A DNA stretch of 39,337 nt from a virus, in IMG/VR virus record IMGVR_UViG_3300030107_005022, positions 1-39,337 of that record. The stretch is one strand, 5' to 3'. Shown piece after piece: positions 3,485-29,357 of the stretch; the stretch's first letter is position 1, and every line of letters starts with the position of its first letter. The position numbers and the translations under genes are program-made. Under the pieces are notes generated by a model that saw only the letters and a program-made list of their open reading frames with translations, was not told the origin of the DNA and searched no databases.

Positions 3485-3645
3485 AGACAGAAATTCCTTT
3501 AAAACCATGTAAATTTATAGTATCTGTTGAGTTTGAAGCTCATGAAAAACTCTCAGATGAAGAAGTAAAACAAGTTTTATTTGACAAATTAAGTACAAAA
3601 ACTAGAGTATTTAAAGAAGTTGAAGTTTTATGGCGAGTTGAATAA
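3481..3645 (+). CDS. Small hypothetical protein (54 aa)
   Basis: A 54-residue frame from ATG 3481 to TAA 3645. An upstream in-frame ATG at 3439 exists, but the ATGA overlap with the preceding stop makes 3481 the likely start. The protein has alternating strand and helix character (FIVSVEFEAH, then LSDEEVKQVLFDKL, then a final strand EVEVLWRVE), as in a small alpha/beta fold. No family recognised. The stop overlaps the next ATG (TAATG), continuing the run of coupled small genes. Confidence 0.6.
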   Translation: MKTEIPLKPCKFIVSVEFEAHEKLSDEEVKQVLFDKLSTKTRVFKEVEVLWRVE

Positions 3646-3827
3646 TGCCTAGATATTCTTATCATTGTAAAGAATGTGATATAACTTTTGAAAAAAGAGA
3701 GAGTTATAACAGTAATGACACAATAGATTGTGAAAAATGTAATAAGATATCTGCAGTTAGACAATTTAGTCCACCTTTGATAATTTTTAAAGGAGATGGT
3801 TGGTATGTTAACAGAAAAGATAAATAA
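3645..3827 (+). CDS. FmdB-type zinc ribbon protein
   Basis: A 60-residue protein with two CxxC knuckles: C8-x2-C11 (YHCKECDITFEK) and C29-x2-C32 (IDCEKCNK). It ends in the motif PPLIIFKGDGWYVNRKDK. This is the layout of the FmdB/putative regulatory zinc-ribbon family, whose members carry two CxxC pairs and a GxGWY-like tail. The cysteines should bind one zinc ion. The molecular function of FmdB-like proteins in phages is not established; transcriptional regulation is a family-level guess. It is the last gene before the 197-nt non-coding region. Confidence 0.85.
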   Translation: MPRYSYHCKECDITFEKRESYNSNDTIDCEKCNKISAVRQFSPPLIIFKGDGWYVNRKDK

Positions 3828-3828
3828 A

Positions 3829-3855
3829 TTGTCAAGTTATGTAATATATAATATA
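3829..3855 (+). repeat. Inverted repeat, left arm
   Basis: The left arm begins TTGTCAAGTTATGTAATA and pairs with 3939-3965. By hand alignment 25 of 27 positions match, with mismatches at arm positions 8 and 10. The arms are separated by 83 nt. Confidence 0.85.
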
Positions 3856-3869
3856 TATAGTATAGTAAT

Positions 3870-3899
3870 AAAGAATATAGTACTAAAGAGTATAGTACT
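3870..3899 (+). repeat. Two 15-bp direct repeats (iteron-like)
   Basis: AAAGAATATAGTACT (3870-3884) is followed directly by AAAGAGTATAGTACT (3885-3899), 14 of 15 identical, with a weaker third unit at 3900-3914. Each of the first two units ends in the palindromic hexamer AGTACT. They lie in the loop of the large inverted repeat. Confidence 0.75.
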
Positions 3900-3938
3900 A
3901 TTAGAGTATATAATAGTATTAGTACTTTATATATTATT

Positions 3939-3965
3939 TATATTATATATTACATGAGTTGACAA
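3939..3965 (+). repeat. Inverted repeat, right arm
   Basis: The right arm ends TACATGAGTTGACAA and is the reverse complement of 3829-3855 at 25 of 27 positions. The arm contains a perfect TTGACA hexamer, so a promoter and the repeat may overlap. Confidence 0.85.
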
Positions 3966-3994
3966 ATTAAAAATTCTTTAAAGTTTAGTATAAT
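3959..3994 (+). promoter_or_regulatory. Promoter-like elements upstream of the thermonuclease gene
   Basis: TTGACA (3959-3964) and TATAAT (3989-3994) are both consensus hexamers, but 24 nt separate them, too far for standard sigma-70. The TATAAT box has a weaker TTAAAA at 3967-3972 with a 16-nt spacer. The box is in the context TTTAGTATAATAAT, which recurs upstream of other genes here. The GTG start at 4025 lies 30 nt downstream. Confidence 0.45.
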
Positions 3995-4024
3995 AATATA
4001 GAACCATAAGTTAAGGAGAATATA

Positions 4025-4381
4025 GTGTTTGAATATAAAGCGAATTTAGTTAAAGTTGTTGATGGAGATACCATTGATGTTGATTTAGATTTAGGTTTTG
4101 GAGTTTGGCTAAAGAAACAAAGAGTTAGACTTTATGGAATAAATACTCCGGAAAGCCGGACAAGAGACTTAGAAGAGAAAAAAAGGGGTTTAGCTGCTAA
4201 GGATAGAGTTGTAGAGCTTATAGAGAATTGTGAAGAATTAAGCATAAAAACTATAATAAACAAAAAAGCTAGAGGAAAATATGGAAGAATTCTAGCTGAT
4301 ATCTTGGCTGATGGAATTAATGTCAATCAACTCCTAGTTTCTGAAGGTCATGCTGTCGAATACTTTGGAGGGAAAAGATGA
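4025..4381 (+). CDS. Staphylococcal-nuclease-like thermonuclease
   Basis: A 118-residue protein with the SNase fold signature. VVDGDTIDVD (D13, D15) is followed by RVRLYGINTPES, with R35 and E43, and later KARGKYGRILADI with R88. These correspond to the catalytic Arg, Glu and Arg of staphylococcal nuclease and to acidic calcium-site residues. The family cleaves DNA and RNA to 3'-phosphate products using calcium. There is no signal peptide, so it should act in the host cytoplasm, for instance in host DNA breakdown or nucleic-acid turnover. Start is GTG 4025, supported by AAGGAG at 4013-4018. It ends with an ATGA overlap into the membrane protein at 4378 and is the first gene after the AT-rich control region. 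Confidence 0.9.
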   Translation: MFEYKANLVKVVDGDTIDVDLDLGFGVWLKKQRVRLYGINTPESRTRDLEEKKRGLAAKDRVVELIENCEELSIKTIINKKARGKYGRILADILADGINVNQLLVSEGHAVEYFGGKR

Positions 4382-5700
4382 TCAACAAAATTAAAAATAA
4401 AATAAAGAGCCTAACTTTTAAAAGTGTCTTAAAAGGTGTAGGTAAACTTTTTTTAAATACATTCACTATAGCTACGCTGAGTATAGGTACTATGGGATTA
4501 TTTTTATCCTATATAAATCCAACTGCGTATATAGCTCAACAATTTCCAAATTTACAAATGGGAGCTTACACACTTGAAACCTTATTTGCTGATGTCAAAT
4601 ATTGGCAATCATTAGGGTATATAGCATGGTCTATATCAGGTGGAACAATAGCTTTAGGATTAGCTATGCATATAAGAAGCTTAGGTAAAGTGATTAGAGC
4701 AATTAAAGCTAGCCCAAGAGCAATAATTAACTTCCCTATGAATACTTACAAAAAAGTAAGAGCAGGGAGAGATTGGTTACTAACTAAAATAAATTATCTT
4801 AACGAAGAATCAGCTAAATGGAGAACAGCTTTTAATATAGCTAAATCACCTTATAGCTTACTCAGATCATTAGGCTTTAGTCCACAAATGGCTGTAGGTC
4901 TTCTTTTTGCAGGTAGTTCAGTAGGTGGTGGTGTAATTGTTAATGAAACTGTATTAAAAGATAGAACTTTTGAGAATGGAGATGCAGGATACTACAACAG
5001 TAACAATGCTACAGGAAATATTAATATTCCTGATGAAACCTTAGAACAAGCTTTAGAAAGACAAGATTCTGACAACACGCTTAGAATTATTGTAGGAACT
5101 TTACCAATCCAAGAAGTATCAATTCAAAATGTGAGTATAGGTACTGCTTATAACTCATCAACTTTGCCACAAGGTAAAAGTGAAGCAATCCTTGTAGAAG
5201 GGACAAACTCAGGTGGTGTTTCGACTTATTTAGAAGTTGGAGAATTAATATTTGAAAAGAATAGGTGTAAACAGCTAATCGTGGAAAACGTCACAAGTCA
5301 TACTATCGAGATCATTGGCAACCTATCAGATGGACAGAGTATCACTCAAAGTGCTGGAACCGGCCTTCGGAGAGCTATAATAGGGGGACATTTCCAAAGC
5401 AAGTCGCTAAAAACTGATTATGGTTTGTATGACCGAATTCATTTGTCAGCCGACACTAACAATGTCAATGGAAAAATTGGCAAGTTAGTAATGTCTAACA
5501 TAGTGAGTAAGGGAGGAACCTGTAACCTTAAAAGAATTAAAGCTGATACTATTAGAATTAATCACAATAGGATAGGAGCAGGTGACGGATTCGCAGCAAA
5601 AGATTTCAAAATCGAATCTTCGGTAAATGCCGTTCATTGGATTGTTGACGATAATGCAGAATTATTAACATCAGAACCTGCGAGCTTGCCTACAGAATAA
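4378..5700 (+). CDS. Multi-membrane-segment protein with beta-rich C-terminal domain
   Basis: A 440-residue protein I cannot assign to a family. Hydrophobic segments lie around residues 25-47 (LFLNTFTIATLSIGTMGLF), 78-98 (GYIAWSISGGTIALGLAM) and 172-190 (AVGLLFAGSSVGGGVIV), interspersed with basic stretches. From about residue 230 the character changes to a repetitive, strand-rich segment (for example EAILVEGTN, then KQLIVENVTSHTIEIIGNL and AIIGGHF) that resembles a small parallel beta-helix, and it ends in a polar tail. This could be a virion-associated or ejected membrane protein, or a membrane-anchored surface protein. It is translationally coupled to the thermonuclease and precedes probable virion genes. 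Confidence 0.65.
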   Translation: MINKIKNKIKSLTFKSVLKGVGKLFLNTFTIATLSIGTMGLFLSYINPTAYIAQQFPNLQMGAYTLETLFADVKYWQSLGYIAWSISGGTIALGLAMHIRSLGKVIRAIKASPRAIINFPMNTYKKVRAGRDWLLTKINYLNEESAKWRTAFNIAKSPYSLLRSLGFSPQMAVGLLFAGSSVGGGVIVNETVLKDRTFENGDAGYYNSNNATGNINIPDETLEQALERQDSDNTLRIIVGTLPIQEVSIQNVSIGTAYNSSTLPQGKSEAILVEGTNSGGVSTYLEVGELIFEKNRCKQLIVENVTSHTIEIIGNLSDGQSITQSAGTGLRRAIIGGHFQSKSLKTDYGLYDRIHLSADTNNVNGKIGKLVMSNIVSKGGTCNLKRIKADTIRINHNRIGAGDGFAAKDFKIESSVNAVHWIVDDNAELLTSEPASLPTE

Positions 5701-8967: not shown

Positions 8968-8978
8968 TAGTATAATAT
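8968..8978 (+). promoter_or_regulatory. AGTATAAT promoter-like box
   Basis: TTAGTATAATA lies in the 30-nt gap after the PAP2-domain gene, 18 nt before ATG 8995. It shares GTAAC-TTTAGTATAAT character with boxes upstream of the genes at 4025, 18005 and 19827. No good -35 hexamer is visible. Confidence 0.4.
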
Positions 8979-11245: not shown

Positions 11246-14200
11246 ATGCCTAAAATAAGGAGAACAGGTGGTCTAACAAGGGGAAACCTTTTTGATACAA
11301 ACATCAAGGCTACTTCTATAGACGAAGACATTTTTAGTGATCAGGAACTATTAGATGAAACTGCAAACGATAGTGATTTAGTCTTAGTTCTTGATGTATC
11401 TGAAACACCTGATAAAATTAAATATATAACTAGAAATAATCTTATAGGTGAAGGGCTTGTAACGATTAATAATAACACAGATAACTTTATAGTAACTGCA
11501 ACAGGCTCTGATTTAAATGGTGAAGCTAATTTAACCTTTGATGGTACTATACTTGTTAATGATGGTGGAGAAATAAATCTAGATATATCTTCAGGAGACC
11601 CACATATGAGTTTTCAAATTGGGGGTTCCGATAAATTTACTCTAGGTGTAGACGATTCCGATAGCGATAAATTTAAAATAGACTCAGGAAGTACTGTAGG
11701 GGCTTCTACTTTAGTTACTTTAGATAGTTCAGGTAATTTAATTGTAGCAGGAGATTTAACTGTATCAGGTGATGATCTTACTATGGGAACAAACACTAGT
11801 GGTTATGTTCTTGTAGCTGATGGTACAAACTATAACCCTGTAGCAATTAGTGGAGATATAACATTAGCTTCAAATGGAGCAGTAGCTATAGGATCAGGTG
11901 TGATTGTAGATGCAGATGTAAATGCAAGTGCTGCAATAGCTGTATCTAAAACAGCTTTGACAGCTGGAACTAATATTTCTTTATCAACAAATACTTTAAA
12001 TGTTGATGATGCTTTTCTTGTAAATGATGGGGATGATGCTACTACAGGTACAATAACCTCAGCAGGATTAATAGTAGATGGGAATAAAAATGTAACTCCG
12101 GGTGATGGAGCATTTATGCATTTAGATACAGCAACTGTTACTGATACTAATACTTCAGGTTCAGGAACTGCTGCAAAATATACGCATGTAAATATAGAAG
12201 CTCCAACTTTAGCAGCTACTAATTCATCAGTAACTACAAGTGATGCAGCTACTTTATATATTAATGCAGCAACAACGGCTGGTTCAAACCAAACTATTAC
12301 AAGAAATTGGGCTATGTGGGTCGATGCAGGAAATGCAAGATTTGATGGCTCTATATATTCAGGAACTACACATGCAATAGATTCTAGTGGCTTAGTACAA
12401 GTCGCTAACCAATCAAATATCACAGGAGTTGGTACAATTAGTTCAGGAACTTGGCAAGGAACAGCGATAGCTTCAGCTTATATAGCAGGAGATGCTATTA
12501 CAGGAGCTAAGATTGCAGACGATGCAATAGATAGCGAACATTATACAGATGGTTCAATAGACACAGCTCATATAGCAGCTAGTCAAGTAACACATGCCAA
12601 ACTAGCAGATGATATAGTTTCAGGTCAAGACGAGATTACTTCAGGATTTGCTGCAGCTGACGAGTTAATGTATTCAGATGATGGAACTATTAAAAGAGTT
12701 GGTTTAGATACATTAGCTACAAAATTATTTTCGGTTGCTAGTGCTGGGACAGTAGCTCAAGCAAGCGATCATATGCTTTTCTTAGATGGGGGAGCAACAG
12801 GAGACGTTATCGTTGAAAGTATAGATGATTTTCTTTCTGCAATAGCTGGTTCAGGTATATCCGTATCAAGTTCTCAGCTTACTTCTGCATCAGGAGCTGT
12901 AACAGCCTTGAACAATGCTACTGCAAATGAATTAGTAACAGTAGGAGCAACAACAACTGAACTTGACGCAGAGACAGCCCTAACATTTGATGGTTCAGAT
13001 TTAAAATTACTTGAAGCTGTAAACAATGGAAATCCATCTGTTTCAGTAGGTGGAGCCGATGCAGAAAGATTAATAATACAATCAGTATTTGATTCAGGAG
13101 CACAAACCTTAGATTATGTAGAATTTGCTACAGCAGCAGCTTCATCTTCATCAAACAAAGGAAAATTTGTATTTGATGTAGATGGTACAGATATTTTAGA
13201 TATTGATGACTCAGGAATAAATCTTGCGTCAGGCAAAACTTTTAGAATTAATGGAAGTGAAATATCTTCTGCTGTAATTACAGCATTAAATAATGCTACT
13301 GCAAACGAACTTGTTACTATAGGATCAACTACTACAGAGTTGGATGCCGAAGCTAATTTAACGTATGCTAGTGATGTTTTAACTACAACATCATCTTCAG
13401 CTAATTTACCAAGATTAGATATTATAAATACTCATGCTGATGCAACAGCAGGTATGATAAAATTCGTTAAAGACCCGGGCTCAGGACAAGGAGCAGATAA
13501 TGATATAATGGGTACGATTACTTGGTATGGAACTGATGCAGGTAATAATGCAGCAGAAGAATTAGCAAGAATGGAAGCCTATGTCATAGAAGCAGATCAT
13601 GGCTCTGAGGCAGGGGGAATTAAATTTTATGTAGCTGAAAACGATGCTACAATGACAGCAGGATTACAAGTTCTTGGAGTTAAAGATGCTGATGGCGAGA
13701 TAGATGTAACTATAGGGGCCGGTGCAGCTTCAACCACAACAATAGCTGGTACACTAACAATGGGTAGTACAAACTTTGTTAATAATTCAGGAGTAATTCA
13801 AGTAGCTTCACAAACCAATATTACAGGTGTCGGTACTATAGGTACAGGTACTTGGGAAGCAACAGATATAGCAGTTGCTCATGGTGGTACAGGAGCTTCA
13901 TCTCTAACAGCTAATGCTGTTTTAACAGGAAATGGAACTTCGGCTATTCAGGCAGAATCCGATCTTTTATTTGCAAGCAATAAATTAATACCTACAGCTT
14001 CAGCTCACGATGCAGCAGGTACAGCTTTAACTGTATCAGCAGGAGCAACTACAGCAGGTACAAGTAATAACCAAGCTGGTGGAGCCCTTACTTTTGAAGG
14101 TGGTCAAGGAAAAGGTTCAGGAGCAGGTGGAGATATAGTATTTAAAACTGCAAACGCTTCAGGCTCAGGAAGTTCCTTAAACTCTCTTGCAACAGCTTTA

Positions 14201-15454
14201 ACACTTAGTGACGATCTTTCATCCACATTTGTTGGAGATATGAATGTAATTAGAGATGCAAATAATGCTGATGTAAAATTAACATTAGGTACTTCTGCAG
14301 CTGAATCACTTATAATCCAAGTATTAAATGGTAGCTCTAATAAAACAGCAGAAGAAGTACATTTCTCAACAGCTACAGCGTCAGCTACAGGAAATCATGG
14401 AAAGATGGTATTTGATGTTGACGGAACCGATATAGCAACAATAGATGATGGTGGTATCGACCTAGCTTCAGGAAAAACTTTTGCAATTAATGGGACAGAT
14501 ATAGTCTCTAGTCCAATTACTGCTTTAAATAGTGCGACTGCTAACGAATTAGTTACAGTAGGAAGCACTACAACTGAACTTGATGCTGAAGCAAACCTTA
14601 CTTTTGCTAGTGATGTTCTAACTCTAGCCTCATCTACGGCTGATTTACCTAGAATAGATATTACTAATACCCACGCAGGAGGAACTGCAGGTAAAATAAG
14701 ATTTAATAAAGATAGTGCTTCAGGAGCAGATGACGATGTTATGGGTACTATTGAGTGGTTTGGTACAGACGATTCAGATAATACTCATGAATTACTAGCT
14801 TCTATGGAAGCTTATATAATAGAAGCTGATCATGGTTCAGAAGCAGCAGGAATTAAATTTAAAGTTGCTGAAAATGACGCAACTATAACTTCAGGATTAG
14901 AAATTTTAGGTGTCAAAGATGCTGACGGAGAAATTGATGTTAATATTGGAGCAGGAGCTGCTTCAACTACAACAATTAAAGGTACTCTGACTATGGGTAG
15001 TACAGCAGCTATGACTAATGCTGGACTAGTTTCAGTAGCTAATCAGTCTAATATTACAGGATTAGGAACTATTTCTTCAGGAGTATGGAATGGTACTGCA
15101 ATAACCCACGCATATATAAACGATGATATAGTTTCAGGACAAGATGAAATAACAACAGGGTTTGCAGCAGCAGACGAATTAATGTACTCTGATGGGGGTA
15201 CTATAAAGAGAGTAGGACTTGATACTATGGCTACCAAATTATTCTCAGTAGCGTCTGCAGGTACAGTAGCACAGGCTAGTGACCATATGTTATTCTTAGA
15301 TGGTGGGGCTACAGGAGATGTAATAGTAGAATCAATAGATGATTTCTTATCAGCAATAGCAGGTAGTGGTATATCTGTATCAAGTTCACAATTAACAGCT
15401 AGTGGTGGGGTATCGCAAGCAACAGCAACAGCCCTTTCAATAATATTTTATTAA
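11246..15454 (+). CDS. Giant repetitive fibre protein
   Basis: A 1402-residue Ala/Thr/Ser/Gly/Asp-rich protein. It contains typical phage-fibre repeats: NQSNITGVGTISSGTWQGTA and its variants occur at least three times, and HGGTGASSLTANAVLTGNG occurs once. Longer modules are duplicated: a 92-residue unit (nt 12608-12883 and 15122-15397), and a longer one beginning TALNNATANELVT, complete at about 13270-13860 and 14510-15090. The N-terminal 70 residues (RTGGLTRGNLFD to KYITRNNLIGEG) look like an attachment domain. It probably forms a trimeric side or tail fibre. There is no S74-type chaperone end; the protein stops soon after the second 92-residue module with ALSIIFY. Confidence 0.85.
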   Translation: MPKIRRTGGLTRGNLFDTNIKATSIDEDIFSDQELLDETANDSDLVLVLDVSETPDKIKYITRNNLIGEGLVTINNNTDNFIVTATGSDLNGEANLTFDGTILVNDGGEINLDISSGDPHMSFQIGGSDKFTLGVDDSDSDKFKIDSGSTVGASTLVTLDSSGNLIVAGDLTVSGDDLTMGTNTSGYVLVADGTNYNPVAISGDITLASNGAVAIGSGVIVDADVNASAAIAVSKTALTAGTNISLSTNTLNVDDAFLVNDGDDATTGTITSAGLIVDGNKNVTPGDGAFMHLDTATVTDTNTSGSGTAAKYTHVNIEAPTLAATNSSVTTSDAATLYINAATTAGSNQTITRNWAMWVDAGNARFDGSIYSGTTHAIDSSGLVQVANQSNITGVGTISSGTWQGTAIASAYIAGDAITGAKIADDAIDSEHYTDGSIDTAHIAASQVTHAKLADDIVSGQDEITSGFAAADELMYSDDGTIKRVGLDTLATKLFSVASAGTVAQASDHMLFLDGGATGDVIVESIDDFLSAIAGSGISVSSSQLTSASGAVTALNNATANELVTVGATTTELDAETALTFDGSDLKLLEAVNNGNPSVSVGGADAERLIIQSVFDSGAQTLDYVEFATAAASSSSNKGKFVFDVDGTDILDIDDSGINLASGKTFRINGSEISSAVITALNNATANELVTIGSTTTELDAEANLTYASDVLTTTSSSANLPRLDIINTHADATAGMIKFVKDPGSGQGADNDIMGTITWYGTDAGNNAAEELARMEAYVIEADHGSEAGGIKFYVAENDATMTAGLQVLGVKDADGEIDVTIGAGAASTTTIAGTLTMGSTNFVNNSGVIQVASQTNITGVGTIGTGTWEATDIAVAHGGTGASSLTANAVLTGNGTSAIQAESDLLFASNKLIPTASAHDAAGTALTVSAGATTAGTSNNQAGGALTFEGGQGKGSGAGGDIVFKTANASGSGSSLNSLATALTLSDDLSSTFVGDMNVIRDANNADVKLTLGTSAAESLIIQVLNGSSNKTAEEVHFSTATASATGNHGKMVFDVDGTDIATIDDGGIDLASGKTFAINGTDIVSSPITALNSATANELVTVGSTTTELDAEANLTFASDVLTLASSTADLPRIDITNTHAGGTAGKIRFNKDSASGADDDVMGTIEWFGTDDSDNTHELLASMEAYIIEADHGSEAAGIKFKVAENDATITSGLEILGVKDADGEIDVNIGAGAASTTTIKGTLTMGSTAAMTNAGLVSVANQSNITGLGTISSGVWNGTAITHAYINDDIVSGQDEITTGFAAADELMYSDGGTIKRVGLDTMATKLFSVASAGTVAQASDHMLFLDGGATGDVIVESIDDFLSAIAGSGISVSSSQLTASGGVSQATATALSIIFY
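12608..12883 (+). repeat. Fibre module A, copy 1
   Basis: This encodes 92 residues from DDIVSGQDEIT to VSSSQLT. It is 89/92 identical in protein to copy 2 at 15122-15397, while 53 of 92 codons differ by hand count. Confidence 0.9.
15122..15397 (+). repeat. Fibre module A, copy 2
   Basis: Second copy of the 92-residue module, close to the C-terminus of the fibre. The only amino-acid differences from copy 1 are Ser/Thr, Asp/Gly and Leu/Met. Confidence 0.9.
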
Positions 15455-17604: not shown

Positions 17605-17931
17605 ATGGCAACAAAAGCAGAACATGTAACACAGTTTAAATCAGATAATGCAGAGCTTTATAAGAATGTTAATGGGGCAAGAATAAAACTAAGTGACTCA
17701 GAGTATGATGCTCAGATAGATGAGTGGGCAACTAATGCAGCAGCACAAGATGTTAAAAATACTGTGATTGCAGATGGTGGAAGTCATGCAGATTACAAAG
17801 CAATAAGAAAAGATGCTTATATTTCTGCATTAGGAGATGCTTACGATCAGCTAGATTATATTTACCACAATGGTCTTGATGCTTGGAAGGTAGAGATCAA
17901 AAAGGTAAAAGACAAATATACAAAACCATGA
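17605..17931 (+). CDS. Tail fibre-associated protein with helical C-terminal domain
   Basis: A 108-residue protein. The C-terminal part, RKDAYISALGDAYDQLDYIYHNGLDAWKVEIKKVKDKYTKP, reads in the pattern 'Y..LGDQLD..Y..G...W...I..VK.KYPKP', which I recall at the ends of many phage fibre-region proteins. The N-terminal half (LKLSDSEYDAQIDEW-like) resembles domains of tail-fibre accessory proteins. It is not a known enzyme. It follows the receptor-binding-type genes after a 10-nt gap with AAGGAG, and its stop overlaps the ATG of a tiny membrane peptide (ATGA). Confidence 0.7.
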   Translation: MATKAEHVTQFKSDNAELYKNVNGARIKLSDSEYDAQIDEWATNAAAQDVKNTVIADGGSHADYKAIRKDAYISALGDAYDQLDYIYHNGLDAWKVEIKKVKDKYTKP

Positions 17932-18005
17932 TAAAAGTATTGATAATTATCGTACTTTTAAGTATAATAATAAGAAGGATATATAAAAGTTCAGAGGAGT
18001 TATAA
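17928..18005 (+). CDS. Small membrane peptide (25 aa)
   Basis: A 25-residue frame beginning at ATG 17928, overlapping the previous stop by 4 nt (ATGA) and ending TAA 18003-18005, which overlaps the next ATG (TAATG). The peptide is MIKVLIIIVLLSIIIRRIYK followed by SSEEL: a hydrophobic span of about 14 residues, then a basic and polar tail. Being coupled at both ends and having membrane-like composition are good evidence that it is translated. The same DNA matches a promoter, so it may have a double role or be fortuitous. Function unknown. Confidence 0.5.
   Translation: MIKVLIIIVLLSIIIRRIYKSSEEL
17940..17968 (+). promoter_or_regulatory. Sigma-70-like promoter (TTGATA-N17-TATAAT)
   Basis: TTGATA at 17940-17945 and TATAAT at 17963-17968 are separated by exactly 17 nt. 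The -10 box is in the recurrent AGTATAATAAT context. It would transcribe the coiled-coil gene at 18005 and the head-tail/tail genes beyond it. It overlaps the coding frame of the 25-residue membrane peptide. Confidence 0.55.
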
Positions 18006-28823: not shown

Positions 28824-29357
28824 ATGGAAATTACAGATACATTAGTTGAACAATGGGAACCTAAAATACATAGAATCTTAGCGACTACTTCAATTCAAGG
28901 TATGGATAAAGAAGATTTAGTACAAGAATTGAGAATAGTGATTGTAAAAGCAGCTAAAAAATTCAATCCCAACAAAAAAACTTCTTTCCATACTTACTTA
29001 CATACAGCTATGATAAATACTATAAGAACTTTTATATCTCAAGCTCAGAAAAAAATACATGCTACTAGTATGGATAAGTTAATTATGTATAGTGAATCAG
29101 AGTATGTACCTTTTAAAATTTCTAAAGCTTTAGAAGACATAAGAGCTTCAGCCTTTATAGACGAGATTGAGATATTTGATATTCTAGATAATTTAAAGTT
29201 AACTGAAAAAGAAAAAAAGTACATAGAATTAAGATTTGAAGATTTAACAATGGTAGAAATTAGTGAGGATTTAGAAGAATCGGCTTATAGAGTTAGAAAT
29301 AAAATTAGAAAGAAATTTGAAAACTTATACAAGGAGAAGATTGAACATGCCTCTTAA
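28824..29357 (+). CDS. Sigma-70-family RNA polymerase sigma factor
   Basis: A 177-residue protein with the two core sigma regions. Region 2 is at about residues 27-72 (GMDKEDLVQELRIVIVKAAK, then TSFHTYLHTAMINTIRTF), the pattern that binds core polymerase and the -10 element. Region 4 is about 118-170 (LTEKEKKYIELRFEDLTMVE followed by SAYRVRNKIRKKFE), a helix-turn-helix for the -35 element. It is short, lacking regions 1 and 3. It is likely to direct host RNA polymerase to phage promoters, perhaps the AGTATAAT boxes seen in this window, and it supports a bacterial host. Confidence 0.88.
   Translation: MEITDTLVEQWEPKIHRILATTSIQGMDKEDLVQELRIVIVKAAKKFNPNKKTSFHTYLHTAMINTIRTFISQAQKKIHATSMDKLIMYSESEYVPFKISKALEDIRASAFIDEIEIFDILDNLKLTEKEKKYIELRFEDLTMVEISEDLEESAYRVRNKIRKKFENLYKEKIEHAS

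Follow-up and report, generated by a model that had tools for sequence, protein, structure and literature searches.

What does the AT-rich stretch at positions 3828 to 4024 of this phage genome do, lying between two recognizable genes and holding a long inverted repeat? The window that we analyzed is the whole stretch of 39,337 nucleotides, bases 1 to 39337 of a 61,189-base virus record. The + strand carries all of the major genes of the phage; those in the window encode a DnaB-like helicase, a primase, a family-A DNA polymerase, a UvsX-like recombinase, a Cas4-like exonuclease, and a Holliday junction resolvase, and the remainder of the record holds terminase, ribonucleotide reductase, portal, head protein, and protease genes. 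A run of ten Ns (39338 to 39347 of the record) marks an assembly gap immediately beyond the window end. Within the window, large degenerate repeats of approximately 300 nt, mutually 70 to 76% identical, occupy positions 12588 to 15390 inside a 1402-aa ORF, the product of which is probably a repeat-built structural protein. Megablast gave no match to a cultured phage, none being close, and a distant DNA search for cultured relatives returned chance matches only.

The AT-rich stretch begins directly after a gene for a 60-aa FmdB-like zinc-ribbon protein (3645 to 3827, + strand; Zn_ribbon_8, E 1.6e-9; FmdB-like PHROG, E 1e-6) and ends directly before a thermonuclease (SNase) gene (4025 to 4381, + strand; SNase, E 3.9e-11), which has a GTG start and the Shine-Dalgarno (SD) sequence AAGGAG at 4013 to 4018. 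The end of the SNase gene is overlapped by the gene for a 440-aa protein (4378 to 5700, + strand), which is presumably cotranscribed with it. A sequence-only reading had described the region between these genes as long non-coding DNA and as a candidate replication origin or master control site. We instead consider it reasonably probable that the region is a transcription-unit boundary, in which the FmdB-like gene is followed by a small membrane-protein gene lying in a sense-strand RNA hairpin and then by the promoter of the SNase gene.

The compositional and repeat features reported earlier were readily confirmed. The GC content of positions 3828 to 4024 is 16.8%, and the lowest-GC 140-nt stretch of the whole 61-kb record falls here. 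The core arms of the inverted repeat (3829 to 3855 and 3939 to 3965) could be read directly as 25/27 matches separated by 83 nt, and the repeat proved to be longer still, growing without gaps to 35/40 (left arm, 3825 to 3864; right arm, 3930 to 3969; both given on the + strand) and then to 42/53. The right arm holds a TTGACA at 3959 to 3964, and the outer arm, TTGTCAAnTnATGTAATATA, differs very little between the two halves. The palindrome starts exactly at the stop codon of the FmdB-like gene, whose TAA at 3825 to 3827 makes up the outermost bases of the left arm, and finishes at the -35 hexamer of the SNase promoter. Its score of 26.0 compares with a maximum of 18.5 in 1,000 dinucleotide shuffles of the region. 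No stronger inverted repeat occurs in this phage or in 13 related records (two of them covered for the first 20 kb only), where all others scored 17 or less, and among 1.4 Mb of further loci a score above 18 was reached only in the tandem-repeat tracts of two contigs. The inverted-repeat pattern is real and not a product of chance.

A replication origin, with an AT-rich segment for unwinding and with its inverted and direct repeats as initiator binding sites, would fit the extreme GC content, the strong inverted repeat, and the two adjacent 15-mers noted previously, which are indeed present on the + strand at 3870 to 3884 (AAAGAATATAGTACT) and 3885 to 3899 (AAAGAGTATAGTACT) and agree at 14/15 positions. 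Each 15-mer, however, is five codons long and in frame with a small ORF described below, and an array of at least three direct repeats is absent; the 15-mers are two in-frame five-codon repeats and not an iteron array. GC skew rises monotonically, with no extremum or change at the site, which is weak evidence given that all major genes point one way. The replication genes (29.6 to 36.7 kb) are approximately 25 kb distant, such a repeat is absent from relatives that share these genes, and no initiator gene was recognized among the families searched, which covered part of the ORFs. We therefore regard an origin at this site as extremely improbable. A protelomerase (hairpin telomere) site was likewise rejected, since the palindrome is not near-perfect at its very center, where the innermost 19 columns hold just 6 Watson-Crick pairs.

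Neither the repeat nor the same type of hairpin was found elsewhere in this genome or in the 13 related records scanned. None of the AT-rich spots inspected in relatives carries the repeat; G035 and G030 have spacers of 9% GC, with weak folds (z of approximately -0.6 and -2.7). The G035 spacer (L200:16967-17080, - strand) contains TTGACAAG, an TAGTATAATA promoter, and AT palindromes, and its fold is not unusual. Contigs with approximately 85 to 92% DNA identity span only approximately 18 to 56 kb of the record, outside the accessory region that holds the AT-rich stretch, and IMG/VR scans with the SNase, DNA polymerase, 440-aa, 1080-aa, 89-aa, and 53-aa proteins and the arm sequence as queries found no syntenic relative of the 1- to 5-kb region. 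Absence from relatives, together with arms of a terminal style and AAT flanks that may border TGTCAA...TTGACA on both sides, might point to a mobile miniature inverted-repeat element, or to template switching that duplicated a local segment in inverted form, with no present function. Against this, no second copy of an arm was present in the window, even when three mismatches were allowed, and no arm with a partner arm was found across IMG/VR or GTDB genomes, the GTDB scan giving a single, partnerless match. Because the symmetry continues beyond the ends that such an element would have, the repeated flanks carry no independent weight. Either source of the repeat is improbable.

Most of the stretch that had been called non-coding is crossed by a 53-aa ORF (3796 to 3957, + strand), which traverses the palindrome and leaves approximately 67 nt (3958 to 4024) that are clearly non-coding. 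This putative gene for a small hydrophobic (membrane) protein has an SD sequence, AAAGGAG, at 3789 to 3795 and starts either at the ATG at 3796 (53 aa) or at the ATG at 3805 (50 aa), which sits 9 nt behind AAAGGAG; it ends with a TGA stop at 3957, and its translation from the second ATG is MLTEKINKLSSYVIYNIYSIVIKNIVLKSIVLLEYIIVLVLYILFILYIT. Its frame contains no stops across the 42 codons past the FmdB stop, compared to 11 in the +1 frame. It stayed open in 14/5,000 dinucleotide shuffles (approximately 0.3%) and in 36/10,000 shuffles that preserved the palindrome; any forward frame was open in 45/5,000 shuffles, and any of the six frames in 328/5,000. The hydropathy of the product, 2.83 over 19 aa, is the highest among the SD-led small ORFs found, and codon position 2 is 62% T, as is typical of membrane segments. 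The SD sequence and ATG overlap the conserved FKGxGWY codons of the FmdB-like gene (compared with G025) and are weaker evidence for the ORF because of this coincidence. Synonymous codon usage did not separate the ORF from shuffles, and no homologue was found in profile or protein searches, IMG/VR included, nor a syntenic relative among the genomes searched.

Other small gaps of the genome also contain tiny hydrophobic ORFs (17928 to 18005 and 58043 to 58168 in record coordinates). The first of these (+ strand), MIKVLIIIVLLSIIIRRIYKSSEEL, overlaps the next start codon, and a similar peptide is kept in the relative L187. In G025, G027, G030, and L163 to L165, the SNase or 440-aa gene is likewise immediately preceded by a small hydrophobic ORF; these ORFs give positional support only, no sequence likeness being seen between them, and among 62 different regions upstream of distant SNase genes a small hydrophobic ORF was not usual. 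In L163, L164, and L165, a conserved spacer (approximately L164:5674-5775) precedes the small gene that lies before the 440-aa homologue; it carries the short complementary segments TCCAAAC...GTTTGGA and GGCACTA...TAGTGCC and is possibly a structured leader. On balance, the evidence tips somewhat towards the ORF at 3796 to 3957 being translated as a membrane-protein gene.

The arms extend beyond the stop codon of the small ORF, and we compared the palindrome to what the encoded protein would require. When synonymous codons were resampled or codons were shuffled, the observed palindrome score was never reached (0/400 each), and when the ORF's own synonyms were permuted, it was reached in 1/400. 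The palindrome thus exceeds what the protein sequence requires and is not explained by the ORF. The region folds unusually strongly both as RNA (z of -6.6 to -7.9) and as DNA (z of -6.6). The folding energy is -47.3 kcal/mol for the sense RNA (z of -7.9) and -36.2 kcal/mol for the antisense RNA, and the sense fold is the stronger because G-T mismatches turn into wobble pairs on that strand. The symmetry axis has five mismatches of the transition type, each of them G-U on the sense strand and none G-U on the antisense strand, a 5:0 asymmetry that, as small-number evidence, leans towards a role at the RNA level. The sense RNA can form a long, almost unbroken A-U stem of 34 pairs that spans the small ORF from approximately codon 9 to beyond its stop. 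No U-tract follows the stem and no intrinsic terminator was called at 3825 to 3990; lacking a U-tract, the stem is not a classical terminator. An Rfam search of the region gave no match. If the inverted repeat acts at all, it most likely does so as RNA.

The region could be a wholly non-coding boundary element, in which a long hairpin terminates the upstream message, protects it, or is excised from it, with the ORF as a by-product of AT-rich repeats. Such an element would account for a palindrome that runs exactly from the FmdB stop codon to the -35 of the SNase promoter and for a nucleotide pattern, above the synonymous-codon null, that protein alone does not explain, and the embedding of the ORF's SD and ATG in conserved FmdB codons and its uninformative codon usage are consistent with it as well. 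The rarity with which the frame stays open by chance in so A+T-rich a stretch, the presence of tiny hydrophobic ORFs in other gaps, and the missing U-tract argue the other way, and we consider a purely non-coding boundary rather unlikely. At the other extreme, the sequence might serve two uses at once, coding for a membrane-active peptide while the 34-pair A-U hairpin of its own message would govern the translation or decay of that peptide, by analogy with type I toxin messages; we think this very improbable.

The earlier proposal of a control site held up in part. A candidate promoter of the phage's common class, TTAAAA-16 nt-TATAAT within TAGTATAATAATATA, lies at 3967 to 3994 (+ strand) at the outer edge of the right arm, and the SNase gene is the first gene downstream of it. 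The promoter hexamers had been placed differently before: the TTGACA is in the arm, as stated, but it was rejected as a working -35 at 24 nt from TATAAT, whereas the TTAAAA at 3967 gives a spacing of 16. Scored with a promoter matrix derived from 32 sites found in relatives, which were chosen as TAGTATAAT before an SD and start codon, the 3967 to 3994 site came 3rd among 122,266 positions across the record. The sites behind the matrix had been selected by their TAGTATAAT core; the upstream half of the 3967 to 3994 site, taken alone, also had a positive score (4.6 bits). In both G025 and G027 the SNase gene is preceded by a matching promoter, with AAATTCTnnAAA ahead of AGTATAATA, and the conserved pattern is AAATTCTnnAAA...AGTATAATArTAnA. 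At the distant SNase loci (the same 62 upstream regions), the promoter is mostly absent. We conclude that 3967 to 3994 is well supported as a predicted phage-class promoter for the thermonuclease gene. The designation "master" is unsupported because the genome has several promoters of this class. Further AGTATAATA-class candidates lie directly before genes at 8969 and 19801 of the window and at 43757, 48582, and 49326 of the 61-kb record, and relatives retain several of them before the same genes; the AGTATAATA in the 17928 to 18005 ORF is a promoter look-alike within coding sequence.

Since the outer arm abuts this promoter in nearly the same form that it has in the other half, the two arms could be putative repressor binding sites, making the repeat an operator that controls the SNase promoter. 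However, the rest of the window has no further copy of the arm sequence, even with three mismatches allowed, and the SNase promoters of G025 and G027 are without it, and we give an operator little credence. A sigma-70-like factor is encoded at 28824 to 29357 (+ strand; Sigma70_r2, weak r4), and a sigma-like factor is encoded in 13/13 related records searched as well as in this phage. The TAGTATAATA promoter class recurs across the related phages, which together with the sigma factor suggests a phage-specific regulon, and we infer from the sequences that the class may be the target of the phage's own sigma-like factor.

The boundary between two transcription units that we favor would thus be arranged as follows. 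The upstream unit would end with the FmdB-like gene and then the probable small membrane-protein gene, with its stop at 3957, and the inverted repeat would be transcribed as part of this unit. When ribosomes do not melt it, the hairpin could shape the 3' end of the upstream message, through its stability or through cleavage by a double-strand-specific nuclease. The promoter at 3967 to 3994 would start a new unit comprising the thermonuclease and the 440-aa protein. The candidate origin thereby drops from the list, and in its place stand a promoter that can be tested and a small gene that was probably overlooked. A promoter motif common to a phage group whose searched members all encode a sigma-like factor offers a concrete, testable link, and the hairpin, if functional, would be an unusual case of a nearly all-stem message that also codes.

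Compared to known systems, the region resembles iteron-type replication origins in being AT-rich and repeat bearing but is without an iteron array, a recognized initiator gene, or a skew change. The small ORF is like the small single-span membrane proteins of phages in its 50-aa length, its hydrophobic C-terminal span, and its embedding between genes with overlap; unlike them, it is without a detectable homologue, and its mRNA has an unusually strong hairpin. T7-type intercistronic RNase III hairpins are long intergenic double-stranded RNAs between transcription blocks, as the hairpin here would be, whereas the present stem is almost purely A-U, occurs once, and overlaps a probable ORF. The promoter at 3967 to 3994 shows no material difference, at the level of sequence, from the sigma-70-like promoters of the TAGTATAATA class in related phages, sharing with them a TATAAT placed 16 to 17 nt from a TTRGAA/TTAAAA-like upstream hexamer and directly before an SD sequence and gene.
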